Source: Hyphomicrobiales bacterium
GTDB taxonomy: Bacteria; Pseudomonadota; Alphaproteobacteria; Rhizobiales; Beijerinckiaceae
Length of the DNA stretch: 64,000 nt
NCBI GenBank assembly: GCA_900466745.1
Contig: UBNE01000003.1
Span: forward strand, 248,001 to 312,000
Direction of reading: 5' to 3'
This document shows positions 1-30,998 of the stretch, in pieces. The translations under genes were made by a program, and so were the position numbers. The notes under the pieces were generated by a model that saw only the letters and a list, made by a program, of their open reading frames with translations, was not told the origin of the DNA and did not search any database. Position 1 is the stretch's first letter, and every line of letters begins with the position of its first letter.

Positions 1-1
1 C

Positions 2-1912
2 ACGGTCTCCATCCTGGGCGATCCCGCTTCGACACTGTCGTTGGCTGAGATACTCGATTCGGCCAAGCAGGCCGAGTTTCGAACGATCCCGGGAACAAGT
101 GTCAACTTCGGCTTCATCCGTACCCCGGTCTGGATCCGGCTGGAGTTGCCCAGCCGAACATCCGCGCAGGCGATCCTCTCGCTCTCGCCGAACTTCCTCG
201 ACGAGGTCGATATCTACACAGCCCCGCCAGATGCCCCTCTTTCCGCGGAACGGTTTGTCCGACACGCGATGGGGGACCGCCGCCCGCTGCCGCAGGACGG
301 CATTTCGGCGCTCGACTATGCCGTTCGTCTCGATTTCACCGAGGGCGCGACGACGCGCGTCTTCATCCGCATCCTGAACAGCAACACGGCGACCTATCTG
401 CTTCTGCAACTCGGTTCGATCGAAGACCATACCTCGCGGGTCGTCATGAGTGCGAGCCTTTATGGCGTCTGGTTCGGCGGCATGGGCGTGCTGCTGGTGA
501 CGCAGCTCGTCTTCTTCTACTTCGACAGGAAGGCGCAGTATCCGCTGCTGGCGGCCAGCACGCTCGGGATCATGCTGATCTATATGGGCAATCTCGGCTA
601 CAGCCGGCTCTATCTCTTTCCCGACAACGGTGCCGCCAACGACGCTTTTCTCGGCTTCAACGCCTGGGCCGGCCTGACGGCGAGCGCGATCGCCTACATG
701 CACATCCTCGATCTGCGCCATCGGGCGCCGCTGGTGCGTCGCCTCTATCAGGCCGCTGCCCTGGCCGGACTCGTCGGTGTGGGCTTCGCCTTTGCCGGCG
801 AGAACATGATCTTCGGACCGATCGGCTCGGTGCTGACCATCGTCATGGCCTGCGTGAACATGGTGCAGGGCCTGCGGCAATGCAGCGAGGAAGGGACTGC
901 GAGCCGTCTCAGGGGCGCGGCATTCGCGGCGCTTTGCCTCGGCGCCGTTCTGACGATGGCGCAGCGTCTCGGAGCAAGCTGGCTGCCGCATTGGACCGTT
1001 CACAGCTACGGCATCGCCGGATTGTTTCTCACGGTGCTGCTGACGGGGGCCCTCGCGGTTCGGCTGCGGGCCGCCGAGGCGCTTACGCTGCGGATGAAGG
1101 ACGAGGCGCTGCGGCATGCGCAGCTTGCGGAGAACATCGCGGCGGGATTGGTCGAGGAGAGAACGCGCGAGCTGGTCGATGCCAGACGCATCGCCGAAGA
1201 AGCGCTTCGTCTCGAAAAGCAGTCCCAACTCCAGCAGGTCCGTTTCCTCGAAGTGGTGTCGCATCAGTACAGGACGCCACTCGCCGCCATCCGCTCGAGC
1301 ATCGACAGCATCGGACTGGCCCTGCCGTCCGACGACGGCGCCAACCAGGGCCGGATCGAGCGCATCCGCAGAGCCATTGCGCGGCTCGTCGAGATGCTGG
1401 AGATCAATCTCGCGCGCAGCCGGATACAGGGACCGTCCTTCCGCCCTCGCATCGTCCGCATCAATGCCGGCGCCCTTGTCAGCGCCGCCCACCAGCGCGC
1501 CTGCGACCTGCTCAGCGGCCCGACGATCGAGCTGCTGCTCGAGCCGCGGGCCGCGCAGGCGACGATCGCGGCCGACGAGGGCATGATGGAACTCGTCATC
1601 ATCAATCTGCTCGAAAATGCCGTCAAATTCACCGCGCTGAAGGGCAGCGAGCCGATCGAACTCACCCTGGCCATGGCGGGCGAAGAGGTCGTCGTCACCG
1701 TCACGGATCGCGGCTGCGGCATCCCGGCCTCCGAGCTTCCCGAGGTTTTCGCGCTCGGGGCGCGCGGGCGGCATTCCGAGGCCGTCGAAGGATCCGGCCT
1801 CGGCCTGTTCCTGGTGAAGAAGATCGTCACCGCCCATAACGGCCGGGTTTCGATCGAAAGCAGCGAAGGCGTGGGCACCACGGTGCGGGTCGTCCTGCCG
1901 ACAGAGCCCTGA
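2..1912 (+). CDS. 7TM-DISM sensor histidine kinase, 5' end outside the window
   Basis: Membrane histidine kinase. The reading frame stays open to the window edge, and the first start inside is a TTG at 41, so the N terminus is probably cut off. Counting from that TTG, residues 1-130 resemble the extracytoplasmic 7TMR-DISMED2 sensor domain. About seven hydrophobic segments follow (140-340), then a charged coiled coil (345-400). The HisKA box has its phospho-acceptor at about H408, in SHQYRTP. The ATPase part shows an N box (NLLENAVKF), a G1 box (DRGCGIP) and a G2 box (GSGLGLF). No response regulator is adjacent in the window. The next genes rightward form a peptide-export cluster, which it might regulate, but this is inference from position only. 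Confidence 0.85.
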   Translation, partial: TVSILGDPASTLSLAEILDSAKQAEFRTIPGTSVNFGFIRTPVWIRLELPSRTSAQAILSLSPNFLDEVDIYTAPPDAPLSAERFVRHAMGDRRPLPQDGISALDYAVRLDFTEGATTRVFIRILNSNTATYLLLQLGSIEDHTSRVVMSASLYGVWFGGMGVLLVTQLVFFYFDRKAQYPLLAASTLGIMLIYMGNLGYSRLYLFPDNGAANDAFLGFNAWAGLTASAIAYMHILDLRHRAPLVRRLYQAAALAGLVGVGFAFAGENMIFGPIGSVLTIVMACVNMVQGLRQCSEEGTASRLRGAAFAALCLGAVLTMAQRLGASWLPHWTVHSYGIAGLFLTVLLTGALAVRLRAAEALTLRMKDEALRHAQLAENIAAGLVEERTRELVDARRIAEEALRLEKQSQLQQVRFLEVVSHQYRTPLAAIRSSIDSIGLALPSDDGANQGRIERIRRAIARLVEMLEINLARSRIQGPSFRPRIVRINAGALVSAAHQRACDLLSGPTIELLLEPRAAQATIAADEGMMELVIINLLENAVKFTALKGSEPIELTLAMAGEEVVVTVTDRGCGIPASELPEVFALGARGRHSEAVEGSGLGLFLVKKIVTAHNGRVSIESSEGVGTTVRVVLPTEP

Positions 1913-2526
1913 ACAGATCTTTGACCAGGGGCAGCCCGGTGGCTGCGGCGTCCAAAATCACCTTACGGCGCGCAGTCCACTTCCCAGCCGGGCTCAGTTA
2001 ACACTTTTTTCGCCGTCCCTCAAAGAAGCAGCGCCCAGACGAAGCAAATCGTTACATCGCATTACATCGCGGAAAAAGCGTTACATTTTCGGATATTGAT
2101 TGCGGGCGACACCCGTACGAACGTCATCTCCACAGAAACACACTGGGGAGCTGGTGCGATAGCGCCGTCCGAAAGACCGCGCCAATTCGGAAATGAGATG
2201 GAGTCTCGCGCGACGACATGCGCGCCGCACTTCTTTTTTGCCTTGCTGTTTTGGTCAGTTCGGTTCCTTGCCCTCGAAACGGTGCAGGCACCGGCTTCGG
2301 TAAACGGCATTAGGTAGTATCCAAACTAAATTGAATAAATAATTCACAATTATTTGGTTATAATTGCGCAATCTCAAATAAATTGGCGATTTTTAATACT
2401 AAGTAAAATGGTTCTTCTGTAAGTTTTCTCTACTACCAGTATGCGATTACGCCAGAATAAGCCTCAAGAATGCGCCCCTCTCGAACATCACCTTCAACAC
2501 GCAATAATCAGCCGGAGACTCGATCG
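1913..2526. other. Intergenic region, partly AT-rich, upstream of the peptide cluster
   Basis: About 600 bases without a convincing gene. The short frames on both strands near 2062-2317 have no ribosome site or family signature. From about 2310 to 2460 the DNA is strongly AT-rich compared with its surroundings and contains a TATAAT at 2359-2364, so it probably carries the promoter of the downstream cluster. Three TTACAT copies lie at 2052, 2062 and 2081. Confidence 0.5.
2052..2086. promoter_or_regulatory. Three direct TTACAT repeats
   Basis: TTACAT occurs at 2052-2057, 2062-2067 and 2081-2086 on the plus strand. The first two are parts of a repeated TTACATCGC with a 10-base period, and the third lies 19 bases further on. 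Spacing near one and two helical turns is typical of tandem regulator sites. The binding protein is unknown. Confidence 0.3.
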
Positions 2527-2796
2527 ATGAACAATAACGACATCCCCGACAATGCTTCTGTGCAGCCGCCGCCGTGCTCCGACGTGAAGCTCAGCGAGCA
2601 GGAACTCGAGGCGCTGAACGGCGCCGGTGTCGGCAATGCATTCAAGGGGGCCGTCGCGGGCGGCCTCGGCCTTGCGGGCGTGGGTGCCATGTGCGGCCCC
2701 GTCGGGGCCGGGGTGTTGGGCGCTGTCGGCGTGATCGGCGGGGCGATCATGGGCGCATTCGCGCCGGACTCAGACGGTCCGGTCAGCGGTCTATAA
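2527..2796 (+). CDS. Glycine-zipper bacteriocin-like precursor peptide 1
   Basis: An 89-residue peptide, probably exported and cleaved by the downstream NHLM transporter. The start at 2527 was chosen over an upstream in-frame start at 2470 because GGAG lies about 9 bases before it. The first half is a hydrophilic leader ending in LSEQELEALNGAG. The rest is a Gly/Ala/Val-rich hydrophobic core with GxxxG-like spacing and one cysteine. The leader ending matches four other small genes at 9187-10804. No family name is certain; it could act as an unmodified membrane-active bacteriocin. It lies 49 bases upstream of the HlyD-like gene and is likely cotranscribed with it. Confidence 0.7.
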   Translation: MNNNDIPDNASVQPPPCSDVKLSEQELEALNGAGVGNAFKGAVAGGLGLAGVGAMCGPVGAGVLGAVGVIGGAIMGAFAPDSDGPVSGL

Positions 2797-2803
2797 TCGT
2801 TAT

Positions 2804-2816
2804 CGAGGTCACCTCG
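2804..2816. other. Short palindrome between precursor 1 and the export genes
   Basis: CGAGGT and ACCTCG are separated by one base (2804-2816) in the 49-base gap. An RNA hairpin here could protect the precursor mRNA 3' end or attenuate the export genes. No T-run follows, so it is not a standard terminator. Confidence 0.3.
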
Positions 2817-2845
2817 TTCGACCCTTCGTTCCGAGACAACGCGAC

Positions 2846-4096
2846 ATGACGGCGGCTCTCTACCGCAAGGAAGCGCTCGACAATCTCGCGGGCCCTGACC
2901 GGCTCGACGAGATGGTGCGCGTCACCTCTCCGCAGGGCTGGGCCGCGCTGGGCACGGCGCTGCTGATCGTAACCGGCTGTCTCGGCTGGTCGATCTTCGG
3001 CAGCTATCGCACCACCGTCTCCGGCCAGGGCCTGCTCGTCCCGGCCGGAGGCGCCTTCGTCAGCGTCTACGCTCCCAAGGCCGGGTGGCTCGACAGCTAT
3101 CGACAGCGCGGCGACAAGGTGAAGAAGGGTGATCTGATCGCCCGTCTCAGCGCGCCCGAGGACGCAGCCCGTCTCGCCGACGTCGATAGCCGCGTCACCC
3201 AGCTCACGGAACAGCGCGCAGCGCTCGCTGCGCAGATCGAGGATCGCATCCGCAAGGAGACGATCGCGGCCCAGCGCAAGCGCGAGGCGCTGCAGGAGAC
3301 GATCGATCTCGGAGAATCTCGGGTGGAGGCGCTCAATACCCTGCTCGGTCAGCGCGAAGGCCTGCTCTCGAAAGGGCTGATGCCCTCCGACCGGATCATC
3401 GAGACGCGCGAGAGGCTGTTCGCCGCCCGCGAATCGATATCCAGGGCCCGGACGGAGCTGTTATCGCTCGACGCCTCGCTCCAGACCCTGCGCCACCAGA
3501 CCGACCAGGAGCGCGCGGCGCTCGATCGCCAGTTGCGCGACGCGGAGGGCCAGCGCGCCCAGACCCATCTCAGCGAGAACCTGGCGACGACTATCGTCGC
3601 CCGTTCCGACGGCACCATCACCACCAACGAGGCCGGCGACCACGCGCTGGTCAGCGCCGGCCAGAAGCTGATGGTGATCGAGCAGGGCGGCCCGCGGCTC
3701 GACGCGCTGCTCTATGTGCCGGCGGACAGCGGCAAGGAGGTCAAGCTCGGCATGGAGGTGCGCCTGTCGCCCTCCACCGCCAAGAAGGAGGAATACGGTT
3801 CGCTGATCGGCACGGTCATCCAGGTCGACGACAGCCCGGAGAACGAGGCGGCGCTGGCCCAGCGCCTCGGCAACCCCGATCTCGCGCGCCTCTTCACCCG
3901 CGCCGGGCCGCCGCTCCAGCTTGTCGTGCGGATCAATCCCGGTTCCGACGGCCCCGACAGCTACGCCTGGACCTCCAAGCGCGGCGAGCAGGTCGAGCTC
4001 GCCTCGACCACCCTTCTGGAGGGCCAGGTGACCGTGAAGTCTGGCCGGCCGATCAGCCTGTTCATCCCGGCGCTGCGCAGGTTCGTCGGATTATGA
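2846..4096 (+). CDS. NHLM-type secretion adaptor (HlyD family)
   Basis: A 416-residue periplasmic adaptor of the HlyD/membrane fusion family, resembling the NHLM bacteriocin system secretion protein. It has a short cytoplasmic N terminus, one membrane segment at about residues 33-53, a biotinyl-lipoyl-like segment and a long coiled coil (about 95-230, rich in Arg, Glu and Gln). A beta-rich C-terminal part follows. It should link the ABC exporter to the outer membrane. Its end overlaps the next gene by four bases (ATGA), indicating translational coupling. No outer-membrane TolC-like partner is in the window. Confidence 0.88.
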   Translation: MTAALYRKEALDNLAGPDRLDEMVRVTSPQGWAALGTALLIVTGCLGWSIFGSYRTTVSGQGLLVPAGGAFVSVYAPKAGWLDSYRQRGDKVKKGDLIARLSAPEDAARLADVDSRVTQLTEQRAALAAQIEDRIRKETIAAQRKREALQETIDLGESRVEALNTLLGQREGLLSKGLMPSDRIIETRERLFAARESISRARTELLSLDASLQTLRHQTDQERAALDRQLRDAEGQRAQTHLSENLATTIVARSDGTITTNEAGDHALVSAGQKLMVIEQGGPRLDALLYVPADSGKEVKLGMEVRLSPSTAKKEEYGSLIGTVIQVDDSPENEAALAQRLGNPDLARLFTRAGPPLQLVVRINPGSDGPDSYAWTSKRGEQVELASTTLLEGQVTVKSGRPISLFIPALRRFVGL

Positions 4097-6273
4097 GCAA
4101 GGTGCCTCCCTTGCGCTTCCCGCAGACCGGCCGCAAGCGGGTCCCGACCATCCTGCAGATGGAGGCCGTCGAATGCGGCGCCGCCTGTCTCGCCATGGTC
4201 CTGGCCCATCACGGCAAATGGGTGCCGCTCGAGGAGCTGCGCGTCGCCTGCGGCGTCTCGCGCGACGGCAGCAAGGCGAAGAACCTGGTGCAGGCGGCGC
4301 GGCGCTACGGCCTGGCGGCCGAGGGCTGGCGCACCGAGCCGAACAAGCTCGCCGGCAAGCGGCTGCCGGCGATTCTGTTCTGGGAATTCAACCATTTCGT
4401 CGTGCTGGAGGGGATCGGCCGCAAGGTCGTCTACATCAACGATCCCGCCAGCGGCCCGCGCACGGTCACGCATGATGAATTCAACCGCGCCTTCACCGGC
4501 GTGATACTGACCATGGCGCCAGGGCCGGAGTTTCGGCCTTCAGGCGCGCGGGCGAATGTCTGGGGGGCGGTGCGCGACCAGCTCGCGCCCTCGCGCGGCG
4601 CCGTCGTCTTCCTGGTTCTGGCCGGCATCGCCGCCCTCGTGCCCGGCGTCTTCGTTCCGGCGGCGACGAAGGTCTTCGTCGACGACATTCTCGTTCGCCA
4701 TCTGACGGACTGGATGCGGCCGCTGCTCCTTGGCCTCACCTGCGCGGCCCTTCTCGGCGGGCTGCTGAACTGGCTGCAGGGCTATTTCCTCGCGCGCCTG
4801 CAATGGAAGCTCGGCGTGTCGCTGGGCCTGAAACTGACATGGCATCTGCTGCGGTTGTCGCCGAGCTTCTTCGCGCAGCGCTATGCGGGCGACATCGCGA
4901 GCCGGCTCGCGACCACGGAACGGGCCTGCGACCTGATCGGCAGCCAGGTTTCCGCCCTGCTGGTCACAGGGCTCGCGGCGTTGTTCTACGGGGCGTTGAT
5001 GGCGGTCTACGACCCTGTGCTGGCAGGCATCGGCCTGGCGCTTGCCCTCTTCAATGCCGTGTTCGCCCGCCTCATGGCGCGCCGGCAGGAGAATGCCGCC
5101 CGCACCGTCATGCGGGAGCAGGCGGCCCTGGGCAGCCTTTCCATCAGCGGCATCCAGTCGATCGAGACCTTGAAGGCGACGGCTTCCGAGGACGATTTCC
5201 TGAATCGCTGGGCCAACGCTCAGGCGCGCACCATGAACGCGGTGCACCGCTCGCAACTGCCGCTCCAATTCCTCGATCTGATCCCCCGTGCGCTCGGCGC
5301 GTTGACGATGGCGGCGATCCTCGGCGTCGGCGGCTGGCGCGTCATGGAGGGCCTGATCACCGTCGGGACGCTCGCCGCCTTCCAGACCGTCCTGTCGAGC
5401 TTCCTGTCGCAGGTCGGCGGTCTCGTCGGCGTCGCGTCGGGCATGCGCGAACTGCGGGTCGCGATGGAGCGCGTCGACGACGTGCTGCGCTATCCGCTCG
5501 ACCGCCGCCTGGACCCGAAATGCGCGCCCGAGGCCGAGGGGCCGCCGCGTCGTCTCTCCGGCGCCGTCGATGTCGCCGATCTGAGCTACGGCTACAACCC
5601 GCTCGATCCACCGCTGGTCGATGGCTTTTCGCTGAAGGTGGCGCCGGGTTCCCGCATCGCTCTGGTCGGCCCCTCCGGCAGCGGCAAATCCACGATCGCG
5701 CGGCTGCTCGTCGGGCTGGCCGAGCCCTGGGGCGGCAGTATCGCGTTCGACGGCCAGCCGGGGGACCGGATCCTGCCCGGCGTCCGCGCGGCTTCCATCG
5801 CCTATGTCGAGCAGTCGGTCGTCCTGATGGAAGGCACCGTCCGCGAGAATCTGACCTTGTGGGACCCGCGGGTGAGCGAGCGCACGATCGTCGAGGCGGC
5901 CCGCGACGCCGGCCTGCACGAAACCATCGCGGCGCGCCCCGGCGGATACGATGCCCCGGTCAGCGAAGGCGGCAGCAACTGGTCGGGCGGCCAGGCCCAG
6001 CGGCTGGAGATCGCCCGGGCGCTGGTGGGCGAACCGAGCATCCTCGTGCTCGATGAGGCGACCTCCGCTCTCGATGCCGCGACCGAAGCGACCATCCTCG
6101 AAAACCTCCGACGCCGGGGCTGCACCATCATCCTGGTCACCCATCGCCTCAGCGCTATCCGCGACTGCGACGAGATCCTCGTGCTGGATCGCGGCCGCAT
6201 CGTTCAGCGCGGATCGCATGAGGCGCTCTACGACCAGCCGGGCACCTATGGAGAACTCATCCGTGCTGCATGA
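4093..6273 (+). CDS. NHLM peptidase-containing ABC exporter (C39 protease, membrane and ATPase domains)
   Basis: A 726-residue bacteriocin exporter that cleaves leader peptides and moves the cores across the inner membrane. The N-terminal C39 peptidase has its catalytic Cys at C28 (in VECGAAC), His at H101 (in NHFVV) and Asp at D117 (in INDPAS), so it appears active. A six-helix membrane domain occupies about 160-450. The ATPase domain shows Walker A (GPSGSGKST), signature WSGGQAQ and Walker B (ILVLDEATSALD). C39 peptidases cut after double-glycine-type leaders, matching the GG/GA motifs of the five nearby peptides. It starts in an overlap with the HlyD-like gene and overlaps the next ABC gene by 26 bases. 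Confidence 0.93.
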   Translation: MSKVPPLRFPQTGRKRVPTILQMEAVECGAACLAMVLAHHGKWVPLEELRVACGVSRDGSKAKNLVQAARRYGLAAEGWRTEPNKLAGKRLPAILFWEFNHFVVLEGIGRKVVYINDPASGPRTVTHDEFNRAFTGVILTMAPGPEFRPSGARANVWGAVRDQLAPSRGAVVFLVLAGIAALVPGVFVPAATKVFVDDILVRHLTDWMRPLLLGLTCAALLGGLLNWLQGYFLARLQWKLGVSLGLKLTWHLLRLSPSFFAQRYAGDIASRLATTERACDLIGSQVSALLVTGLAALFYGALMAVYDPVLAGIGLALALFNAVFARLMARRQENAARTVMREQAALGSLSISGIQSIETLKATASEDDFLNRWANAQARTMNAVHRSQLPLQFLDLIPRALGALTMAAILGVGGWRVMEGLITVGTLAAFQTVLSSFLSQVGGLVGVASGMRELRVAMERVDDVLRYPLDRRLDPKCAPEAEGPPRRLSGAVDVADLSYGYNPLDPPLVDGFSLKVAPGSRIALVGPSGSGKSTIARLLVGLAEPWGGSIAFDGQPGDRILPGVRAASIAYVEQSVVLMEGTVRENLTLWDPRVSERTIVEAARDAGLHETIAARPGGYDAPVSEGGSNWSGGQAQRLEIARALVGEPSILVLDEATSALDAATEATILENLRRRGCTIILVTHRLSAIRDCDEILVLDRGRIVQRGSHEALYDQPGTYGELIRAA

Positions 6274-9136
6274 AGCCCCTCAGCGGATGGCCGGCAGCGG
6301 CACGACGCCCATCGAGCGGTGCGGAGCCGTCCCGGTCTCGGTCGCCGGGCTGCGCGTCGACGTCGGCTCGGCCGATCTGTATCTCGATTGGCCCGGCCGG
6401 GCGGGGCGGCGGCGACGCATTGCCTCTCTTGACGCCCATGACATCGCCCTGCCGCTTTCGCTCACGCCGCCCCTCTCGGAACTGCCGGCGGAAGCGCGGT
6501 TTCTCGCCTTTCCAGCGCCGGGCTCGCGCTTGTCTTCCTTCGCGATCGAACCGTTTCTGAAAAGCCTCGATGCCGGCGAGCCCGCCGCGATCGAAGCGGC
6601 GGAGCGCTGGATCGAGCGCACCGCTCAGGCCGCCGGCCGGCCATTGGCGGGGACCATGCATCTCCTCGAGGCCGGAGAGGCGACGCTGGTACCCGGTCGC
6701 GTGGCGCGGCCGGCGCAAGGGATTCTCTGGGCCTCGGCCGCCGATGCGGCGCTGCTGACCGGACTGCCGGGAGCCGCGCCGGTTCTTCCGGCCATGCCCG
6801 CAGTTCCGGTGACGGCGGCCGGCGTGGCCGTCGATCGCGCGGCGGCGATTACCTGCCGCTCGAGTGTCGCGCTGGCCTTGGAGGGCGGGCTCTCGCGGGG
6901 CGTCCTCGCCCATCACGAGCGGGTGAAGCAAGCGCTCGCCTTCGCGGAAGCCGGCCGGGAAGACGAGGAAGCCGCGTACATCGCCGGCAAGGGCGACCGC
7001 GATCGCGCTGTCCTGGCTGCGACGGTCGCGCCGCTTCTGGCTCCCGCCGCGGCAGGCTCGCTGCACGGCGCTTCGCTGGCGTCGGTGTTCAGCAGCGTCG
7101 CCCGGGCCTCTGCGGTCGGCTTGCCCAACACGCCCTGGTCCGCATCCGACGAATACGAGCGCCAGCCGGTCGAGCAGCAGATCGACGCGCTTTCGGGCTG
7201 GGCCGGCGTGCGGGCTCGGCGCATCCGGCTGGAGCCGGGCTGGTGGCGCCGGGGCGGGCAATCGATCATCGGTTTCCGGCGGGATGGTGGCGGGCCGGTC
7301 GCGCTGATCGCGGGCACCGGCTGGCGAGGCGGATATCGCATCCGCGAGGCCGGCCGCGATCGGCCTGTCGACGCCCGAGTTGCGGCATCCCTGGCTCAGG
7401 ACGGCTACATCGTTCAGCGCCGCCTGCCGGATACGGCGATGGATGGCCGCGGCCTGCTGCGTTTCGCCGCCCCGCTGGCCTGGCCTGCCTTGGTTGCGAT
7501 CGTCATCATCGGCCTGGCCGGAAGCCTGCTCGGGCTCGTGACGCCGATGGCGACCGAGATCCTGTTCGAGACGGTCATTCCGGCGGCCTCGCATGCCGAG
7601 CTGGTTCAGCTCACGGCCGGCATCGCGGCGCTGGGCCTGGGCGGCATGGTCTTCGAACTCGTCCGCAGCTTGCTGGTCTTGCGGCTGTCCACGCTGCTGA
7701 ACACCGACCTCGAAGGCGCCGTCTGGGACCGCCTTCTGCGTTTGCCAGCCGGATTTTTCCGAAGCTACACCGCCGGCGATCTCGCCTTGCGGGCCGCGGC
7801 GATCAACCAGATGCGAGACGCGGTGAGCGGCACGGCGATCAGCTCGCTGTTATCGGCGGTGTTCTCGGTCTCCAGCCTCGCCCTGATCCTCTATTACGAA
7901 TGGCGCCTCGCTCTGGTCGCGATCGGCCTCGTCATCGTCCAACTGGTCGTGATGGTCGCGGTCAATCTGCGGATGCTGGGCTGGAAGCGGCAGGCGCTCG
8001 AGACGGACGGGCGGCTCCAGGCGCTTGCGCTTCAGTTGATCCAGGGCATCGCGAAGCTGAAAGTCGCCGGTGCCGAGGCGCGGGCCTTCGCAAGGTGGTC
8101 GCCGCTGTTCATCGCAAGGCGAGCGCTCGGCTTTCGCCAGGGGGCCTTGTCGTCCGGCTTCTCGGCGTTCGGGACCGCGTTCGGCATCGCCTCGACCGCG
8201 CTGCTGGTCGGGATCGTCGGCCTCGGCGGGATCGAGATCGGGATCGGCCGCTTCGTCGCGTTCAACGCAGCCTACGGCCAGTTCGTCTCGGCGACCCTGT
8301 CCCTGGGCAGCGTCCTGCCCGCTTTGATGTCGCTGAAGCCGCTTTACGGCCGAGCCGCGCCGCTGCTCGCCGCCTTGCCGGAGAATCTTGGCCGACAGGG
8401 CGCCCGGCACGATCTGCGCGGCGGCATCGAGGTCCGCGACGTGGTGTTCCGCTATCGCGGCGAAGGCCCTGCCGTTCTCGACGGCGTGTCGATCAAGGCC
8501 AAGGCGGGCGAGTTCGTCGGCATCGTCGGTGCCTCCGGTTCCGGCAAATCCACCTTGATGCGCGTCCTGCTCGGCTTCGAGACGCCGGAAAGCGGATCGG
8601 TGTTCTTCGACGACCAGGAACTCGGCAGCCTCGACCCGAGGGCATTGCGCCGCCAGATGGGCGTCGTCCTGCAATCGAGCCGCGCCACGAGCGGCACCAT
8701 CCTCGACAACATCCTCAACGGCGCCGCGCTGACCGAGGCCGATGCCTGGGAGGCGGCGCGCCTCGCCGGGCTGGAGGCAGACATCCGGGCCATGCCGATG
8801 CGTATGTACACCTTCGTCGGCGAGGACGGGACACTTCTCTCAGGCGGTCAGCGCCAGCGCCTGCTGATCGCCCGCGCGGTGGTGCGCCGGCCGCGGATCC
8901 TGCTCTTCGACGAAGCGACCAGCGCCCTCGACAACCGCACCCAGCAGATCGTCTCCGAAGGGTTGGAATGGCTCGACGCCACCCGAGTCGTCATTGCGCA
9001 CCGCCTGTCCACCATCCAGCACGCCGACCGCATCTATGTGCTGCAGGGAGGGCGGGTCGCCGAGGAGGGAAGCTATCGCGAGTTGCTCGAGCGCGGCGGA
9101 TTGTTCGCCCAACTGGCGCTCAGGCAGGTCGCGTGA
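6248..9136 (+). CDS. NHLM second ABC transporter, no peptidase domain
   Basis: A 962-residue ABC membrane-ATPase protein of the second NHLM transporter type. Its first half (about residues 1-390) is a poorly characterised soluble region without a C39 peptidase. A six-helix membrane domain follows (about 410-700). The ATPase domain has Walker A (GASGSGKST), signature LLSGGQRQR and Walker B (ILLFDEATSALD). The ATG at 6248 is the first sensible start and overlaps the previous gene by 26 bases. A GTG at 6263 or an ATG at 6287 are alternatives. It probably forms a heterodimer or paired transporter with the C39 exporter, as in other NHLM loci. Confidence 0.88.
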   Translation: MENSSVLHEAPQRMAGSGTTPIERCGAVPVSVAGLRVDVGSADLYLDWPGRAGRRRRIASLDAHDIALPLSLTPPLSELPAEARFLAFPAPGSRLSSFAIEPFLKSLDAGEPAAIEAAERWIERTAQAAGRPLAGTMHLLEAGEATLVPGRVARPAQGILWASAADAALLTGLPGAAPVLPAMPAVPVTAAGVAVDRAAAITCRSSVALALEGGLSRGVLAHHERVKQALAFAEAGREDEEAAYIAGKGDRDRAVLAATVAPLLAPAAAGSLHGASLASVFSSVARASAVGLPNTPWSASDEYERQPVEQQIDALSGWAGVRARRIRLEPGWWRRGGQSIIGFRRDGGGPVALIAGTGWRGGYRIREAGRDRPVDARVAASLAQDGYIVQRRLPDTAMDGRGLLRFAAPLAWPALVAIVIIGLAGSLLGLVTPMATEILFETVIPAASHAELVQLTAGIAALGLGGMVFELVRSLLVLRLSTLLNTDLEGAVWDRLLRLPAGFFRSYTAGDLALRAAAINQMRDAVSGTAISSLLSAVFSVSSLALILYYEWRLALVAIGLVIVQLVVMVAVNLRMLGWKRQALETDGRLQALALQLIQGIAKLKVAGAEARAFARWSPLFIARRALGFRQGALSSGFSAFGTAFGIASTALLVGIVGLGGIEIGIGRFVAFNAAYGQFVSATLSLGSVLPALMSLKPLYGRAAPLLAALPENLGRQGARHDLRGGIEVRDVVFRYRGEGPAVLDGVSIKAKAGEFVGIVGASGSGKSTLMRVLLGFETPESGSVFFDDQELGSLDPRALRRQMGVVLQSSRATSGTILDNILNGAALTEADAWEAARLAGLEADIRAMPMRMYTFVGEDGTLLSGGQRQRLLIARAVVRRPRILLFDEATSALDNRTQQIVSEGLEWLDATRVVIAHRLSTIQHADRIYVLQGGRVAEEGSYRELLERGGLFAQLALRQVA

Positions 9137-9186
9137 ACCGGGCATCCGCCGGACGGAAACGCAGCAAACCAAAGAAGGAACCCGAC

Positions 9187-9432
9187 ATGACCGACAGCAG
9201 CAACCGCAAGCTCGAGGAGACCGAGCTCGACCACGTGCACGGCGCAGGGGCCAATGGGCATTGGGACCATACCGGAAAGTCCTCGATGTGGGTGACCACC
9301 GTGCCCGGCGACGCCCATGGCTTCTTCGGGCCGAGCGAGAACAGAAGCTCCGTGCGGCCGGACGGCAATGGCGGCTACATCCGCTGGGACCGGGCCAATA
9401 ACTGCGAAGCTCCGGCCATCCGCAGGAGCTGA
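9187..9432 (+). CDS. Small peptide 2 with double-glycine-type leader and polar core
   Basis: An 81-residue peptide starting 50 bases after the second ABC gene, behind a good AAGGA ribosome site. Residues 8-20 (LEETELDHVHGAG) match the leader ending of the other precursors here. The predicted core of about 60 residues is polar and rich in Gly, His, Trp, Asn and Asp, with one Cys. This differs from the hydrophobic cores of peptides 1, 4 and 5. I recognise no family for the core. It may be a second exported peptide or an accessory factor. Confidence 0.55.
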   Translation: MTDSSNRKLEETELDHVHGAGANGHWDHTGKSSMWVTTVPGDAHGFFGPSENRSSVRPDGNGGYIRWDRANNCEAPAIRRS

Positions 9433-9465
9433 GGCGGTGGCGCCAATCGCTTGATGGAGAAGGCC

Positions 9466-9666
9466 ATGGACAAGGAAAAAGCCAGGATCGACGAACAGCG
9501 CTTGGATATGAAGCTGTCCGACGACGATCTGGAGGCCGCGGTAGGCGGCGTCGGTCAAGCGCGCGGGTCCGTCAATGTCGAGGCCCTGGCGCACAAATAC
9601 GCCGTACGGGACCCGCTCTATCGCCCTGCCAATGTAAAACTTGCAATCGAGGTTGATCATGACTGA
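9466..9666 (+). CDS. Small peptide 3 with GG-type leader
   Basis: A 66-residue peptide. The ATG at 9466 is preferred because GGAG lies six bases upstream; in-frame starts at 9451 and 9454 would add four or five residues. The leader segment LSDDDLEAAVGGVG is nearly identical to that of the next gene. The short core is polar and mixed in charge. The end overlaps the next gene by eight bases. Its function is unknown; export by the NHLM system is inferred from the leader. Confidence 0.5.
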   Translation: MDKEKARIDEQRLDMKLSDDDLEAAVGGVGQARGSVNVEALAHKYAVRDPLYRPANVKLAIEVDHD

Positions 9667-10141
9667 AGCCGTCGAGAAATTCCAGGACCATATCCGCTCC
9701 ATCGCCGGCGATCAGCCGAAGCTGGAAAGCTTTATCACGCAGGTGAAAACGCCCGATGATCTTGTCGCCTATGCCGCGCATGCCGGCTGTCCTCTCGACA
9801 AGATCGAGGCCGAGGAATTGTTCGAACAAGGGCGGGCTGCCTATAGCCAGATGCAGAATCAGCTGAGTGACGATGATCTGGACAAAGTGGTCGGCGGCAT
9901 CAGCTTCACGGCCATCGGCGTCGGCGTCGGCGCGGCACTTGGCATCGCGGCTGTCACGGTTCTGACGGCAGGCGTGGGGACCGGGTTCTTAGCCGCCGCG
10001 GTGGCCGCCGGTACCACGACGTGGGGCGGCGTCGTTGCCGGCGTGGCAACAACAGGCGGAGCGATGGCCTTTTCCGGTGCCGTGGTCGGCGGCGGCGCTG
10101 GCCTCGTCGTGGACAAGGTGGTCGACGCCGTTAAGTCGTGA
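9659..10141 (+). CDS. Nif11-like-leader precursor peptide 4, glycine-rich core
   Basis: A 160-residue precursor. Residues 1-60 resemble a Nif11-type leader (helical, with FQDHIRSIAGDQ and VKTPDDLVAYAAHAGC). A second leader segment ends LSDDDLDKVVGG at about residue 81. The roughly 80-residue core is Gly/Ala/Val/Thr-rich, hydrophobic and without Cys, suggesting two membrane hairpins. Such leaders are typical substrates of NHLM exporters. With no lanthionine synthetase, YcaO or radical-SAM gene nearby, the core may be unmodified. It starts inside the end of the previous gene. Confidence 0.72.
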   Translation: MTEAVEKFQDHIRSIAGDQPKLESFITQVKTPDDLVAYAAHAGCPLDKIEAEELFEQGRAAYSQMQNQLSDDDLDKVVGGISFTAIGVGVGAALGIAAVTVLTAGVGTGFLAAAVAAGTTTWGGVVAGVATTGGAMAFSGAVVGGGAGLVVDKVVDAVKS

Positions 10142-10318
10142 AGCGCTTGTCCTGATCGGATAGTTGATATCCTTCGCTTTCATGCGTCAGGAAGCCAGAT
10201 TCCAGAACGTCCACAATAACAGTGGGCGTTTACCGATCTCCGTCGAGGCGACGTAACCGGCCACCCGACGAAGCCTCTTCTCCAAAACATTCTTTCTATT
10301 AAGAAGGATTCACCGCAC

Positions 10319-10804
10319 ATGACAGAACAAGCTGCTATTTCCGATAGCCCCCGGTTCATCCGGTTCCAGGGCGTCCTTTCCAAGCTCGCCTCCGACCCTG
10401 ATGAAGCAAAGCAATTCGCCTCTACTGTAAATGGCCCAGAGACGTTTGCTTCCTATCTCTCCCAGAAGGGAATCGCCGTTAGTGCGAGCGAGGCGGAGAC
10501 TGTCTACGGAGCCCTGCACGAACTCGCCGGGACGCTGCCCCATCAGGGAGGAGCAGAGCGGCCGCTCGGAGATAATGAATTGGGCGAAGTGGTCGGCGGG
10601 GGATGGGGCTGGGTCGCAATCGGCGCGGTCGCCGGGCTTGCCCTTGGAGCGGTGACGGGCGGCGTTGGTCTCGCACTTGCCGGCGCAGCCTTCGAAGTGA
10701 TTGGTACCGCCACGATCGGAGCCGTCGGAGGCGGACTTGTGGGTGCCGGCAGCGGCGCTGCGGTTGGCGGCATCGCTCAAACCATCAAAAACGCTCTTTC
10801 GTAA
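10319..10804 (+). CDS. Nif11-like-leader precursor peptide 5, glycine-rich core
   Basis: A 161-residue paralogue in architecture of the preceding precursor. It has an acidic, helical Nif11-like leader, then LGDNELGEVVGGG at about residue 80-92, then a hydrophobic Gly/Ala-rich core with many GxxxG spacings and no Cys. AAGAAGGA lies at about 10302-10309 upstream of the start. A 177-base gap separates it from precursor 4, so it may have its own promoter. A hairpin at 10824-10846 follows the stop closely and probably ends the cluster. Confidence 0.7.
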   Translation: MTEQAAISDSPRFIRFQGVLSKLASDPDEAKQFASTVNGPETFASYLSQKGIAVSASEAETVYGALHELAGTLPHQGGAERPLGDNELGEVVGGGWGWVAIGAVAGLALGAVTGGVGLALAGAAFEVIGTATIGAVGGGLVGAGSGAAVGGIAQTIKNALS

Positions 10805-10823
10805 GACGCGTTTATAAAACAGA

Positions 10824-10846
10824 CGGGAGCGGCAATGCCGCTCCCG
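10824..10846 (+). terminator. Hairpin after precursor 5
   Basis: CGGGAGCGGC and GCCGCTCCCG pair around an AAT loop, 20 bases after the stop codon. Only a short TT follows, so termination may be inefficient. It marks the likely end of the peptide-export transcription unit. Confidence 0.6.
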
Positions 10847-11150
10847 TTACTTGCCGCTCGGCCGAGATCGCTGGAATCGCCCGAAAGCCGTCGTTTTTCG
10901 CCGCCGGCCGCCCTGGGGCATTGGATTTCTCGTCCTCATCGAGCGCATTCCACCGCCGAGATCCCCGGACTGCCGGCCCAGGCGGAACCTTCGGAGAGAC
11001 TCGCCGAACAGCAGGCCGGGCGCCTCGTACTGCACCCGCCTCTCAGGTCGCGAAAAGTCCTGAAACCAGAGCTGGCTCGGGAAAACTGGACAGTGCGGAT
11101 AAGTGGAGTTTCTACCTGAAGGCGGCATGATGGCCGCGACAGGCGAGACC
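10847..11150. other. Intergenic region before the IS relic
   Basis: About 300 bases with no convincing gene. The overlapping short frames on both strands lack ribosome sites and family features. The segment TGGACAGTGCGGATAAGTGG near 11087 looks like the outer part of an IS3-type end leading into the transposase relic. Confidence 0.4.
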
Positions 11151-11412
11151 ATGGCAAAACGACCGCGGCGGAACCACGCGCCAGCCTTCAAGGCGAAAGT
11201 GGCCCTCGCAAGCTGAGCTGACACGGCAGTTCGACGTACATCCGAGCCAGATCACGCAGTGGTGCAATCAGCTTCTCGACGGGGCTGCGGGCGTCTTCGA
11301 CGGTGAAACACAGGCCGCAGCGCCCGCTCTGGCGGTCGACGTGAAGACGCTGCATGGGAAGATGAATGGCGCGCCGCGCCGAGCGATGATGACAACTACA
11401 TCTCCTCTATAG
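11151..11412 (+). pseudogene. IS3-family transposase OrfA relic
   Basis: The frame at 11151 begins MAKRPRRNHAPAFKAKVALA, the usual N terminus of IS3-family OrfA. It then hits TGA at 11214. The next frame from 11215 continues ELTRQFDVHPSQITQW and then NQLLDGAAGVFDGE, the DNA-binding helix-turn-helix region of the same family. About ten residues are missing at the junction. It then reads VDVKTLHGKMN before diverging and stopping at 11412. No OrfB remains. The relic separates the peptide cluster from the methyltransferase cassette, which suggests insertion-mediated assembly of the island. Confidence 0.8.
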
Positions 11413-11567
11413 CCCTCTAGGTCCCTCCCTTAGCCAGAACGCGGTTGGAGACGCACTTCGGGACAATAGACCTCGCATGGCTCGTCAGGTCCGCCAAAGG
11501 CTTGCACGATGCTCATGTATAAAACGCGAACTGACCGAGTTTGAGCAACGCCAGAGCAACCTTTTGT

Positions 11568-12341
11568 CTACTTAGGAATCTGCTCGGCGAACTCGCCTTG
11601 GAGAGGAATCGAATACGATGCAGCCAACTCGGCTATCTGATAACCGACCGACTTGCGCAATGCCCTGAGTGCGGCCTCGAAGGCGAGCCACTCCGGATCG
11701 CCACCGTCGCACCGGAGCGTAGTAAGGTCGAAGGGCTCAACTAGATCAAAGAAATGACGGATCGTTTTAGCCAAGGCAACAATGACGGTGTCAAGCGGGC
11801 TACCCGGAGCGCAATCGCGTCGCAGTCGACTCAAGTCGTGACGCAGACCATCGAGCGATATCCGCACCCGATCGGGGAACTCCGCGTCAAACCTTGCCCA
11901 GAAGGCTCGGCGATCTTCAACGAGTGCAACTATATCCCGAGCTAAGCTAGGCGCCATTTGCCCCGAGCGAAGCAGCTCGATGCTACTCGCCCACCCTCGC
12001 TGGCGCACCTCGACAATCAGGGCTTCATGGTCGCGTTTCCAGTCGTGGAGTTGTTGCGCTGTGAACCCCGCATGGTCCTTGTCCACCATATCGCCGCACT
12101 CACGGCACAGCCAAAGGCCGTTCGCGGCCGACCGTCGTTGAACTTCGCTTTGATTAGGATCGTAGCGCGGTCCGCCTTCGGCGGCTGCACAGATATGCGC
12201 AGCATGTCCTGTTCCTAAGCCTCGCTCATGGCCAGATCTCGGCCCAGCGGTGAGCCGAAGACATTGAGGATTGGAGCAGAAATGCGCGGCCCTCATCGCG
12301 AGTTCACGCTTTACCGGCAGAGAAAATTCATGACGCGGCAT
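11568..12341 (-). CDS. HNH nuclease-like protein
   Basis: A 257-residue protein whose first 100 residues form an HNH-type zinc finger: C22 and C27 (in FCSNPQC), H46 and H49 (in GHAAHI), N74 (in NGLWLC), C79 and C82, and D87-H90 (in DMVDKDH). The remaining 150 residues are helical and unassigned. HNH domains of this form occur in restriction and anti-phage proteins. It is the last gene of a leftward unit, 14 bases after the PD-(D/E)XK-like gene. A DNA-cleaving role in that cassette is inferred. It could instead be an independent cargo gene. Confidence 0.7.
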   Translation of the reverse strand: MPRHEFSLPVKRELAMRAAHFCSNPQCLRLTAGPRSGHERGLGTGHAAHICAAAEGGPRYDPNQSEVQRRSAANGLWLCRECGDMVDKDHAGFTAQQLHDWKRDHEALIVEVRQRGWASSIELLRSGQMAPSLARDIVALVEDRRAFWARFDAEFPDRVRISLDGLRHDLSRLRRDCAPGSPLDTVIVALAKTIRHFFDLVEPFDLTTLRCDGGDPEWLAFEAALRALRKSVGYQIAELAASYSIPLQGEFAEQIPK

Positions 12342-12355
12342 CGCCGTACCTCAGA

Positions 12356-13069
12356 TTACGACAACCAGAGGTGCCACACCGAGATAGGGCCTGGTTCAAT
12401 GCCCGCACTCGCACCGCCGTCATAGATGAAATTTCGGCCGTGCCGCGAATGAGCCAAGTCGTTCTTCGCGACGTTAGCGGCAGTAGGCAAGCTCTCGATG
12501 AGATACCCAGGGGGCTTTTTTGCCATGGCTCCCGACAAGAAGGGAACCAGTTTCGTGCCGATTGACGATCCATCTCGAACGTAGGCAATCATAAACGCTT
12601 CGCGATTTCCCCACGCATATTCTCCCTCTACGAAGCGACGAATGCCATTGTCGCAATATAGAGCCTCTGTCTTCGAGCTGGCGGCATCGATAATTTTTGC
12701 TTCGGTGATCAGCGGAAATCCACGATTTCGATTGGATAGGTAGATCGATAAATCTGGGCGCTTCTCAAGATGTGCGCCATTAAAGCTTATGCTTTCCTTC
12801 CCTCGAACCGCGCAAAGCACCAACTGGCCCCATAGCGGATCTTCCTCAATTAGGGTATTCAGCCGCGCCTCCATGAGGGCGGTGACTTCGGCTTCGCTCC
12901 CAGATGCTACTGTGATCGGAGATTTTGCCCGAACATCGCTAAAAGCTCGTAGAAGTCCCTCGGCGATGACTTCCAGGTGATCTGTTGACACCTCGGGTAA
13001 CGGCAACGCTAACCCGCGCGTTAATTCGGCAACCTGATCTGGACGTGGGCGGATTCCACTAGGCGTCAT
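12356..13069 (-). CDS. PD-(D/E)XK nuclease-like protein
   Basis: A 237-residue protein. The start at 13069 gives a four-base ATGA overlap with the methyltransferase gene, so it is preferred over an in-frame start 81 bases upstream. Around residues 104-125 it reads RPDLSIYL, then FPLITEAKI, matching the PD...(D/E)xK arrangement (D106, E123, K125), with a possible upstream acidic residue at E61 or E75. The later GIRRFVEGEYAWG segment fits the conserved C-terminal half of such folds. It is therefore a candidate cleavage subunit for the methyltransferase. No helicase motif is present. The family name is not known to me. Confidence 0.68.
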   Translation of the reverse strand: MTPSGIRPRPDQVAELTRGLALPLPEVSTDHLEVIAEGLLRAFSDVRAKSPITVASGSEAEVTALMEARLNTLIEEDPLWGQLVLCAVRGKESISFNGAHLEKRPDLSIYLSNRNRGFPLITEAKIIDAASSKTEALYCDNGIRRFVEGEYAWGNREAFMIAYVRDGSSIGTKLVPFLSGAMAKKPPGYLIESLPTAANVAKNDLAHSRHGRNFIYDGGASAGIEPGPISVWHLWLS

Positions 13070-16000
13070 GCAGTCGCCCGCCCCTTCAGCAAATCGACGT
13101 GGGACCAGACAATCCGCTGCGCAAGCAAACGAGCTTGTGTCTCGCTCCAATATCGACGTTGGGCGAGCCTTCCGATCAGTAGGCCGTCCTGCCCATCACG
13201 GATCACAATCTCAGAAGCAGCGGCGTCATCGGCAATACGAAGCAAGCCGTCCCAATCTGCGGAAGCAATTGCATTGGCGTCCTGGCGGGTCGAAGTACGC
13301 ACATCAATGCCATACCAAGGCGACTGAACTGATTTAGTTATTGGGCGAACAGCGAGCTTGGAGCCCCATCGATCACACCAAGGCTTCAGTTCCTTTTCCA
13401 AAATTTCACAGAAATGCGCTTGTTCTTGAAGCTCCGGTGCTTTTTGCGCATCATGCTTACTTTGTGCGAACGGAAGGTTGAACTCCAAGGTGTCCGAAAT
13501 CACCTGCAAGTCGCGAGGGCCAAGCCCATACAAACGCGCAACCCACGCATCGACGTCATCCCAGGATACTTCGCCCGAAATCAAGCCATCAAAAAACTTT
13601 AGAACTTCCTCGCGGCGAGGTTGCTCAAAATCTCGAAAATCTGGAAGCGGAATTCGGTCCAGCGTGGCCTTCTCAATTACCTCGCGCTCAAAGCCAAACT
13701 CACCGCTGGTTACCAGAGCAAACCAAACCGCAAGTTTGCTTCCAAGAACAAGCGCTAGATAACGCACCAGTCCATGCGCGTCTGGAAATCCGTGAGGACT
13801 GTAGCCGTAGAATGTTTCATTAAATACCGCGTTTTCTTCAGAAACGGCTACGCCGATGCGGCCGGTCAGAGCTGGCGGTGATTTATGGACGACAAGCAGT
13901 GGGCCGGAAAACAATTCCACCGATCTGGGGTCATGAATCCGATCATGCGAGAAAGCGTCGAGCGCATCGTGGTCGATTGATGTCGTAGTGAACGATGCAG
14001 CGGTAATCTCAGGAAAGCCGTGAAGATAGCGCGCGTCAACACCAGGCAGGCCATCGCCCTTCTGGCGAATCCGGCTGCTGCGTCTTAGCTTCTGATATCC
14101 GTTGCCGCTACCGCGCAAATGACCGCGATCTGTAAGGCCGATTGCTTCTTGCCAGAACCCATGAAGTGTTAGATGCCCCAGTGCCCGTATCCGCTCTACG
14201 ATGCCAAGGTCGGCTTTCGTGCCACGAAACAAAATCTTCAGGATCTCGGGTGTTTCGACCAGTTGCCGAGATGACACTATTTCCGCATTGAGCGCATCGA
14301 CGCGCATGCTACCGGCGTCGTTGAGCGAATCCTCAATCCTTGGACTGATGAGACGAAACCCTGCGCTCGCAGCGGGAACCCTATTTGTGGCAAGCAGGAT
14401 GCAGAATGGCGCCGAGATTTCCGGCCAAACCTTTGTCTGCCGCAGTTCCACGCCATTGATAATAGAGGTGACGTCCAAAGCCTCGAATAGAGCTTGGCGA
14501 GCCTCGACCATGCCATCACCTTGTTGGAAAAGCAGGCGCGCATGCAGGGCAAAAGCAATTTGACCGTTCGGCTTGGTCCATTCCATTGCGCGCCAAACGA
14601 AAGGCAAGTCTAAGCCTTCGTTTGGCAATGGTGGCGTTGCGATGGAAGTTTTTCTATCGGCGGCGATTTGGGAGACTGTTCTTCGGACAAGATGCCAATC
14701 CGATAGTCCTGTTCCACTAGCCCATGGGGGATTACCGATGACGAGGTCATATTGTCCAATGTGCTCGTCGCCGACCAGTGGGCCTAAGCTTCCAAGTTCG
14801 GCACCCGCAGCATCATCAGGGCCGAGCAAGCGATGCAGAACCTTTCCGCGCAGATCCTTAAACTTCAGCTTGTCAACAGGCCGCGGATTAGGGTCCAGCT
14901 CAATCGACATGAGATAGAGCCCGAGCGCTGCAAAACGCAGCGCAGCTTCGTTAATGTCGAACCCCACAATCTGATCGTACAGAATCCTGCGCAACGCACG
15001 CGTGTCGGGTCGCTTCTGGGTAGCGCGCCAGTTTGACGCGACCAATTCCCGAAATGCAGTAAGCAGGAACACACCTGCACCGGCCGCCGGGTCCAGAACC
15101 TTTGCTGCATAACAATGGTCATGCCGCTCAAGCGCTCTAAACGATGCGCGGACCATTAGGTCGGCAATAGAACGTGGAGTATAATATCCCCCTTCGCGTC
15201 GCTGGCGAAGCGGAGCATGATTGCGTAAGTATAGCTCGTAGGCCTGACTCAAGACTCCTACTGGAATGTGCGCGAAGTCGAGGTTGTCCCATTTCTCCTC
15301 CCAGCCGAGGAAGAGTTGGCTCTCAGGCGCACGCCTCAGCACGTCGCCTAGTACATGATAGGCAATATCCGGGAGGTTCTCGAAGATATTATCTGATAAT
15401 GGAAGCAGGTCGCCATTGAATGTGGCGTCAAGCCAAGCTGAGGTTTCTTTGGCAACCTCACGACTATCAAAGAGGCTGGCTGCACTATCGGTGCCTGACA
15501 TAGCGCTTGGAAGGAGACCGCGATCAGCCAGGAATCGAGTGAACAGCGCGCGGCCTACAAGCGAGATTGCGTCCTCGTCCGAAATCGTATCAAGGCCGCT
15601 TAGTGTCGATATCGAGCCGGTAAGCAGGTTTAGGACGACATTGGAAATCCAATTGCGCTGACTAATCGCCGCTTGTGGCCTGATGTTACCGAGGCGAGCG
15701 AGCGCCGCGGATCGCGCATCACCATCACGCCCCCAATCGACCCGGGCCTGTGCGGGAGTCTTGCTGTCGAGCGCTACGCGATAAACATCGAGCCGACCCG
15801 GCGCCACCACCCCCAGATACGGCGCATCGCCACGCATTGCGAGGAGTCGCCGAATCCTGTGCAATTGCTCATCCCCTTTGAGGGAATCTGCATCAACCAA
15901 GAAGACTAGCGGAGCACCTTGCCATTCATAAACAGCGCTCACGACGCCCAGTAGATCGCTACCGGCGCGCCGTGCAGTCATCAGCGTCGCATAAGGCAGA

Positions 16001-16083: not shown

Positions 16084-16137
16084 CGGAACCCCCTGCATCT
16101 CGACTGCGGCCGAATGCAAGCCCCCAGAAGAACGCTG

Positions 16138-25712: not shown

Positions 25713-25726
25713 CCGCCGCGTCAGGG

Positions 25727-25758
25727 GTGCCGCCAGCGCGTATGCGCAAATACGGCAC
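25727..25758 (+). repeat. 32-base hairpin repeat, copy 1
   Basis: GTGCCG (25727-25732) and CGGCAC (25753-25758) enclose GCGC-GTAT-GCGC, and the same element recurs at 30876-30907. Both copies are followed by GCTAC. It lies between the DUF2285 stop and the truncated trbJ, at or near the deletion junction. Confidence 0.6.
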
Positions 25759-25796
25759 GCTACCCGTCGCCGATCCCTCGCCATGGTTTGCCGTAG

Positions 25797-26180: not shown

Positions 26181-26200
26181 CCGCCAGAAGGAGCATTCCC

Positions 26201-26488: not shown

Positions 26489-26491
26489 TCC

Positions 26492-30628: not shown

Positions 30629-30630
30629 CC

Positions 30631-30846: not shown

Positions 30847-30875
30847 TCGGCCCTCGGCATCCCCGATTTGCGGGG

Positions 30876-30907: not shown

Positions 30908-30998
30908 GCTACAGGCCGCCGTTTCCTCTCCACTGTTCGCCGATCGCCGGGGTCTCGTGACGCCCGCAATCCGATAAGCCGAACAATGGAGGAATCCC

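Follow-up and report, generated by a model that had tools for sequence, protein, structure and literature searches.

NHLM-type exporters and Nif11-like leaders are usually read as a sign of modified peptides, and the locus described here raises the question of what such an exporter carries when no modifying enzyme is found with it. The locus lies in a 64-kb window (contig positions 248001-312000 of the 407-kb contig UBNE01000003.1, C33) of a Hyphomicrobiales genome of 4.49 Mb in 73 contigs. The coordinates and gene calls of the original prediction proved correct: an HlyD-type adaptor, a C39 ABC protein (ABC1), a second ABC protein (ABC2) and five small genes (P1 to P5), spanning 2527-10804. 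The gene content is conserved in Bosea sp. ASV33 (locus L006), the nearest named relative found (93% identity in ABC1), and the modification-enzyme families that we searched for are absent. We lean towards reading the locus as a conserved cluster of the accessory genome that exports plain peptides, in which P4 and P5 would form a two-component membrane-active pair comparable to Cdz or class IIb bacteriocins.

Assignment of the exporter to the NHLM type was confirmed, as all three adjacent genes exceed curated NCBIfam cut-offs. The adaptor (2846-4096, plus strand like the other genes of the cluster) scored 244.9 bits with TIGR03794 (cut-off 156.2), ABC1, with C39 peptidase, permease and ATPase (4093-6273), 973.9 bits with TIGR03796 (cut-off 853.3), and ABC2, a permease/ATPase without peptidase (about 6248-9136, start codon uncertain), 800.7 bits with TIGR03797 (cut-off 709.4). 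The C39 domain of ABC1 (PF03412) reached 126.4 bits, the highest of three C39 matches in the genome, and Walker motifs are present. By eye, the N-termini of the other two matches seem to lack an ECGAAC-type cysteine, that is, the catalytic residue, which makes ABC1 the likely processing enzyme. These two matches are adjacent ABC-type open reading frames (ORFs) on contig C39 (locus L005, 5748-10069), beside an ORF of 800 amino acids, and the three perhaps serve type I export of large proteins. TolC-type outer membrane efflux protein genes occur elsewhere in the genome (six domain matches in three ORFs). An NHLM ABC1 above the cut-off was found in at least 4 of 67 genomes of the genus, with the best 14 candidates per genome scored.

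The five small genes share a type of leader end. P1 (89 amino acids, 2527-2796) has the leader end LSEQELEALNGA and a hydrophobic, Gly-rich core of 56 residues; P2 (81 amino acids, 9187-9432) ends its leader in LEETELDHVHGA and has a polar core of 61 residues; and P3 (66 amino acids, 9466-9666, with an alternative ORF start at 9451) ends it in LSDDDLEAAVGG, followed by a polar core of 38 residues. P4 (160 amino acids, 9659-10141) combines a Nif11-like leader of 80 residues with a Gly-rich hydrophobic core of 80 residues, and P5 (161 amino acids, 10319-10804) a leader of 94 residues, homologous to that of P4, with a similar core of 67 residues. The common leader end that had been proposed was borne out: a pattern fitted to the five peptides, and written after they had been seen, matched five times when all six frames of the 64 kb were read, each time at one of the five genes, whereas 0.02 matches were expected from residue-shuffled frames. 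All five leaders end in G[G/A/S], as in Cdz-like peptides. The proposal of two Nif11-like leaders stood only in part, as the P4 and P5 leaders are homologous to each other but do not reach the cut-off of the Nif11-leader model TIGR03798 (22.5 bits for P4 against 32.3; P5 had no NCBIfam match). None of the five peptides matched the NHLP leader model (TIGR03793) up to E 1.

The five peptides are collinear in Bosea sp. ASV33, with 81-89% amino-acid identity, and P3 and P4 overlap by 8 bases there as well as in the window. The ratio of nonsynonymous to synonymous substitution rates (dN/dS) between window and ASV33, which comes from two genomes only and from few changes in P2 and P3, was 0.19 for P1, 0.30 for P2, 0.32 for P3, 0.23 for P4 and 0.13 for P5, compared with 0.11 for ABC1. 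The five small ORFs are thus real genes, under purifying selection in this comparison. It is very unlikely that the cluster is a decaying remnant of acquired genes that are no longer used: a broken IS3-type transposase fragment lies immediately right of it by eye (window 11127-11400), but all eight frames of the cluster are open, the six genes tested have dN/dS values of 0.11-0.32, and gene order is the same in ASV33.

The cores of P1, P4 and P5 are hydrophobic (grand average of hydropathy 1.07 to 1.34), with Gly, Ala, Val and Ile amounting to 0.68, 0.69 and 0.72 of their residues, respectively; those of P2 and P3 are polar. P1 and P2 have one core Cys each, P3, P4 and P5 none, and the P4 and P5 cores are also free of Pro; the Gly-rich stretch of P1 contains Cys-Gly-Pro. 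A predicted Methylobacterium currus protein (P0015) has a P3-like leader that runs in one frame into P4. The P2 structure model shows a short helix and five strands (mean predicted local distance difference test score, pLDDT, 69.4), and the AlphaFold model of P5 shows a helical leader, with pLDDT 67-79 in 10-residue blocks between residues 11 and 70.

That the cores of P1, P4 and P5 are glycine zippers, as had been suggested, needs to be restated: they are Gly-rich and hydrophobic, but no single core has an excess of GxxxG, and a ladder of glycines emerged only in a wider alignment of the P5 family. GxxxG occurred 5 times in P1 against 5.1 in residue shuffles (p=0.65), 6 times in P4 against 3.7 (p=0.12) and 7 times in P5 against 4.9 (p=0.15). 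When 23 proteins of the P5 family were aligned, nine glycines of the core were kept in 90% or more of the rows; six pairs among these nine were spaced by four, compared with 1.65 in draws from P5's own glycines (p=0.0008). With 19 rows the result was p=0.04, and no excess was left with the 15 nearest rows, so that the ladder, at positions 102-106-110 and 134-138-142-146-150, is a property of the P5 family that is visible only when divergent rows are included.

The pairing of P4 and P5 agrees with the two-peptide design of the original prediction. The two are divergent paralogues, and tandem pairs recur in relatives. Nif11-leader glycine-core peptides were present at five readable loci, namely the window, ASV33, two contigs of Methylobacterium sp. 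Leaf118 (C49 and C57) and G089, a genome of a third genus; at four of the five, in three genera, a tandem pair stands beside an NHLM exporter, with one paired locus each in Leaf118 and G089. In a tree of 33 rows, which drew a warning of meeting long branches from the program, P4 was joined by the second peptide of both G089 and Leaf118 (95/92) and P5 by the first G089 peptide (91/86); the first Leaf118 peptide fell weakly on the P4 side. In Sabulicella (L016), two short-leader glycine-rich peptides lie upstream of a C39 exporter.

In total, at least 35 P4/P5-like proteins were found among the best 8000 candidates scored, together with 11 P1-like proteins, each of 88-89 amino acids, and 33 P2-like proteins. 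Homologs of P1, P2 and P4/P5 that carry a name are all "hypothetical" or "uncharacterized", and their named hosts are Bosea, Methylobacterium, Methylorubrum and Ancylobacter; Bosea thiooxidans and Bosea sp. RCC_152_1 are among the sources of the P4/P5-like and P1-like proteins. The P2 count is too high for P2 proper, because two P2 alignments include doubtful rows: the P2-like peptides of loci L107/L108 (p=0.19) and L009/L012 (p=0.16) were leader-driven matches with core similarity not above shuffles, and we rejected them. The P2-like peptide of Leaf118 has clear core homology to P2 (0 of 2000 shuffles as good). P2-type peptides stand beside the exporters of ASV33, L007, L010, L014 and L011 (at a contig end), that is, at five of the nine nearest loci L006-L014; the L007 peptide, the most divergent of these, has core homology to P2. 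A P3-like peptide of 60 amino acids beside the G089 pair was likewise rejected as a P3 ortholog (core p=0.17; its E 0.002 match aligns the leader best).

Occurrence of the glycine-rich core was limited. A zipper profile matched 5 of 298 genomes drawn from the taxonomic family and 2 of 397 drawn from the order, with the genome studied here counted in both, and two of the five family genomes (G301 and G327) gave weak matches without a Nif11-like leader. Finds of the latter type, at L132 9343-9831 and L133 3187-3561, are short-leader glycine-rich GG peptides with no NHLM gene in the fetched stretch; they come from two genomes of genus g9, taken to be that of Leaf118. A P5-core-like ORF also occurs in G392, and the 20 kb retrieved there contain no NHLM gene. 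Two other genomes of the window's genus have an NHLM exporter of 49% identity together with a convergent Trp-rich GG peptide (L107 4488-4751 and L108 13389-13676; core GAGQWVAP..WWVWKES), which has its own set of close homologs.

Whether the peptides leave the cell unmodified was assessed by searching for modification enzymes in the flanks, the genome and related loci. As originally proposed, none was found. To the left, Pfam searches of 15 chosen ORFs of an 18-kb stretch gave no modification enzyme; they identified a sensor kinase, a response regulator, a molybdopterin oxidoreductase, CoA transferases and components of an ABC uptake system; several of the 15 matched nothing. To the right, three ORFs up to 16.1 kb gave none either, with endonuclease-like and type IIG-like restriction-modification proteins among them. 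The whole genome had no match to LANC_like, YcaO or MbnB/TglH, and the genome of ASV33 none to LANC_like, YcaO or MbnB-type families; each genome had 11 radical-SAM matches. Among ten genomes searched, LANC_like was present in one and YcaO in eight, and in the three of these eight that were checked YcaO was on a different contig from the exporter. For the relatives' flanks (114 ORFs called, 112 of them scanned with Pfam), the absence of modification enzymes is based on the Pfam lists, which give the 25 most frequent families out of 63 and out of 83, on a radical-SAM motif scan of all 114 ORFs, on the tblastn comparison given below and on the genome-wide LANC_like and YcaO searches.

One claim of the original prediction, that an enzyme-free NHLM locus would be uncommon, was not supported. 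An NHLM ABC1 match was present in 22 plasmid records, of which we examined the eight annotated alphaproteobacterial ones; annotation in PLSDB is incomplete, and at five of the eight no enzyme was annotated within 10 kb. Modification-type genes within 10 kb were annotated in Shinella, Mesorhizobium and Ensifer only, counting the Ensifer GNAT protein, which we take to be a maturase. The Shinella and Mesorhizobium plasmids (L128 and L129) carry NHLM exporters with Nif11 precursors, radical-SAM enzymes and GNAT proteins, as well as NHLP in Shinella, and are likely genuine clusters for ribosomally synthesized and post-translationally modified peptides (RiPPs). Eight GNAT and radical-SAM proteins from these three plasmid loci had no relative by tblastn in 80 kb around the window cluster, and none in the other loci tested except the three source loci. 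Plasmid carriage of the window cluster itself was considered but not supported: P5 had no match in 72,556 plasmid records, and the 22 records matching ABC1 were all below 60% identity.

These results bear on the possibility that the locus makes a RiPP after all, with a modification enzyme whose gene lies at another place or whose family has yet to be described. In its favor, both NHLM exporters and Nif11 leaders have links to RiPPs, precursors far from modification genes are described in the consulted part of the report on the NHLM/NHLP/N11P system (Haft, Basu and Mitchell 2010, PMC2887384), and the genome has 11 radical-SAM matches. However, none of these 11 lies on the cluster contig, the LANC_like, YcaO and MbnB-type searches were negative, no relative of the eight plasmid-locus enzymes occurs around the cluster, and cores with no more than one Cys make lanthionine or azole chemistry unlikely. 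In a RiPP cluster the enzyme is encoded with the precursors; no member of the searched families is encoded in this way here, which leaves room for an undescribed one. Overall, we consider a RiPP pathway unlikely, and export of plain peptides is the reading that we pursue.

Comparison with known systems helps to place these plain peptides. Class IIb two-peptide bacteriocins of Gram-positive bacteria and class II microcins are unmodified, have GG leaders, are exported by C39 ABC proteins and include GxxxG-rich pairs. By this general description, rather than by sequence, the cluster shares with them GG-leader pairs, here probably plain, and C39 ABC export, but it differs in leader type and exporter type, has no adjacent immunity gene that we recognised, and has in P5 a core that is more conserved than the leader. 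As described in part of the source (PMC2887384), the NHLM system resembles the cluster in that TIGR03794, TIGR03796 and TIGR03797 are adjacent in one operon and leaders end in a GG-type site, one leader of the cluster having weak TIGR03798 similarity. Unlike that system, the cluster has no enzyme found for thiazole/oxazole-modified microcins (TOMMs) or lanthionines, its cores are hydrophobic and Cys-poor, the P5 leader is missed by existing models, and the P1-P3 leaders are short; precursors without TOMM or lanthionine enzymes had, however, already been noted there. Cyanobacterial bacteriocin groups IV and V, as covered by the part of the study used here (Wang, Fewer and Sivonen 2011, PMC3140520), also combine a C39 ABC, a peptidase-less second ABC, HlyD and several diverse GG precursors, with group IV defined by LanM; the cluster differs in being alphaproteobacterial and in having a glycine-rich pair and the P2 family.

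A further comparison is with Cdz, the contact-dependent bacteriocin of Caulobacter crescentus (Garcia-Bayona, Guo and Laub 2017, PMC5380434; consulted in part), and it rests on anatomy, not on sequence comparison with CdzC/CdzD. Both have two adjacent small glycine-rich proteins, leaders ending in G-G/A/S and a type I exporter; modification is probably lacking in both, and the gene for the outer-membrane pore is thought to lie elsewhere. Many Cdz-like systems have transposases nearby, and Cdz is further characterized by contact-dependent killing and surface aggregates. The cluster differs by its NHLM-type two-ABC exporter, its long Nif11-like leaders and three more peptides. Cdz-like peptides have 60-151 residues, a range that P4 and P5 exceed and P1 fits, and their zippers are uninterrupted by Pro or Cys; the P4 and P5 cores have neither residue, the Gly-rich stretch of P1 contains Cys-Gly-Pro, and GxxxG counts in the cluster are not above shuffles. 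No counterpart of CdzI, the immunity protein with three transmembrane helices, was recognised in the window ORF lists or the ASV33 alignment. Given the lengths of P4 and P5, the Cys-Gly-Pro of P1 and the lack of a recognised immunity gene, we do not class the cluster as Cdz.

Taken together, the cluster may work as follows. An accessory block of about 12 kb probably comprises a two-component system that controls the NHLM-type exporter and the five plain double-glycine peptides. The C39 domain of ABC1 would cut each peptide after G-G or G-A. The cores would leave the cell unmodified through ABC1, ABC2 and HlyD together with a TolC-like pore whose gene lies elsewhere. P4 and P5 would act as a two-component pair whose hydrophobic glycine-rich helices pack in the surface or membrane of neighboring bacteria, and P1 may be a third, shorter peptide of this type. 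P2, which is polar and beta-rich in its model, and P3 could be helpers or have separate tasks.

Several observations weigh against a membrane-active pair of this kind. Single-core GxxxG counts are what composition gives, and conserved-glycine spacing in the 15 nearest P5 rows shows no excess (p=0.50). The P5 core is modeled as low-confidence helices (pLDDT 29-63 in 10-residue blocks; overall mean 54.6), and when the models of P2 and P5 were compared with PDB folds no match reached E 0.001 (best E 1.1 and 3.7). Neither P2 nor P3 looks like a membrane-active peptide. Leaf118 C57 carries one copy only, the 19 kb retrieved there contain no NHLM gene, and the single paired locus each of Leaf118 and G089 and the long-branch warning limit the pairing argument. 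Co-inheritance of the kinase/regulator pair described below with the cluster rests on two lineages, and no immunity gene was recognised in the ORF lists and the ASV33 alignment that were looked at. In addition, the P5 core is more conserved than its leader (0.90 versus 0.74 identity in 14 ortholog rows, core higher in 89 of 91 pairs; 0.79 versus 0.59 in 18 rows that include Ancylobacter-type proteins, core higher in 151 of 153), so that P5 shows no sign of an arms race, which is unusual for a fast-diversifying toxin.

The last of these points leads to an alternative that is possible but doubtful: the peptides may be exported plain and yet not be toxins, serving as a surface coat, a matrix or a kin signal, with the conserved P5 core having a structural role. 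P2 behaves like P5 in this respect, both in close orthologs (core 0.80 versus leader 0.66, 9 rows, core higher in 35 of 36 pairs) and in a wider set (0.65 versus 0.53, 16 rows, 106 of 120), and the polar P2 and P3 cores and the lack of a recognised immunity gene point the same way. In contrast, P4 cores are slightly more variable than their leaders (0.73 versus 0.79, 12 rows, core higher in 19 of 66 pairs), and a patchy accessory distribution with paired hydrophobic peptides is generally more typical of antagonism.

The setting of the cluster agrees with an accessory block. Comparing 16 kb to the left and 20 kb of the window with 19.6 kb of ASV33, DNA similarity was limited to -1018 to 2130, 2496 to 10152 and 10303 to 10868. 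A 7TMR-DISM sensor histidine kinase (1-1912, plus strand, Pfam) begins left of the window (L004 15672), and a divergent response regulator (L004 14985-15776, Pfam) lies left of the kinase, outside the window; in ASV33, both stand beside the corresponding cluster with 84% and 86% identity, respectively. Among 41 genomes drawn from the genus without ASV33 (taken to be G037), with the best 30 candidates per genome scored, the kinase was found at E 1e-100 in at least 2 and was not found in the other 39. The other of the two copies, 46% identical, adjoins a regulator of 51% identity, with no NHLM genes in the 17 kb fetched. We infer that the kinase/regulator pair controls the operon. Upstream of P1 (1913-2526), a stretch at about 2320-2440 is AT-rich by eye and 2131-2495 is unaligned with ASV33. 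A sigma-70 scan gave one site, on the minus strand, against 1.0 expected, and Rfam had no match over 1-12000. A GC-rich hairpin of 11 pairs follows P5 (10823-10847); its T-run is on the minus strand, so its role as terminator of the peptide operon is uncertain.

Beyond the cluster, a defense patch on the minus strand (window 11568-16119) encodes a type IIG-like restriction-methyltransferase and an endonuclease-like protein that matches PADLOC effector and SAVED_HNH models, the latter presumably linked to cyclic oligonucleotide-based antiphage signaling systems (CBASS). Further on, window 25595-33439 contains TrbK, TrbL and CagX-type conjugation genes and a serine recombinase ORF (31734-33392) overlapping a tRNA-Arg gene (33363-33439). 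This nearby region has the appearance of an integrative conjugative element.

A broader proposal, which we offer tentatively and hold to be possible rather than probable, is that in these Hyphomicrobiales the NHLM exporter serves as the secretion apparatus for a set of several unmodified peptides that make up a weapon or a surface system. The glycine-ladder pair would then be older than the split of at least three genera, the P2 family would accompany the exporter even where the pair is not found, and the system would have its own two-component switch and self-protection without a dedicated immunity gene. In the collection of papers searched, we found no paper joining Nif11 with glycine zipper, and none joining NHLM, ABC transporter and Alphaproteobacteria as whole words. 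The locus indicates that an NHLM exporter and its leader type can serve plain hydrophobic peptides, which would be missed by mining that starts from modification enzymes. It also provides a testable bridge between NHLM exporters and two-peptide systems of the Cdz and class IIb types, and in P5 a conserved-core peptide that may have kept one target, or one structural role, in different genera.

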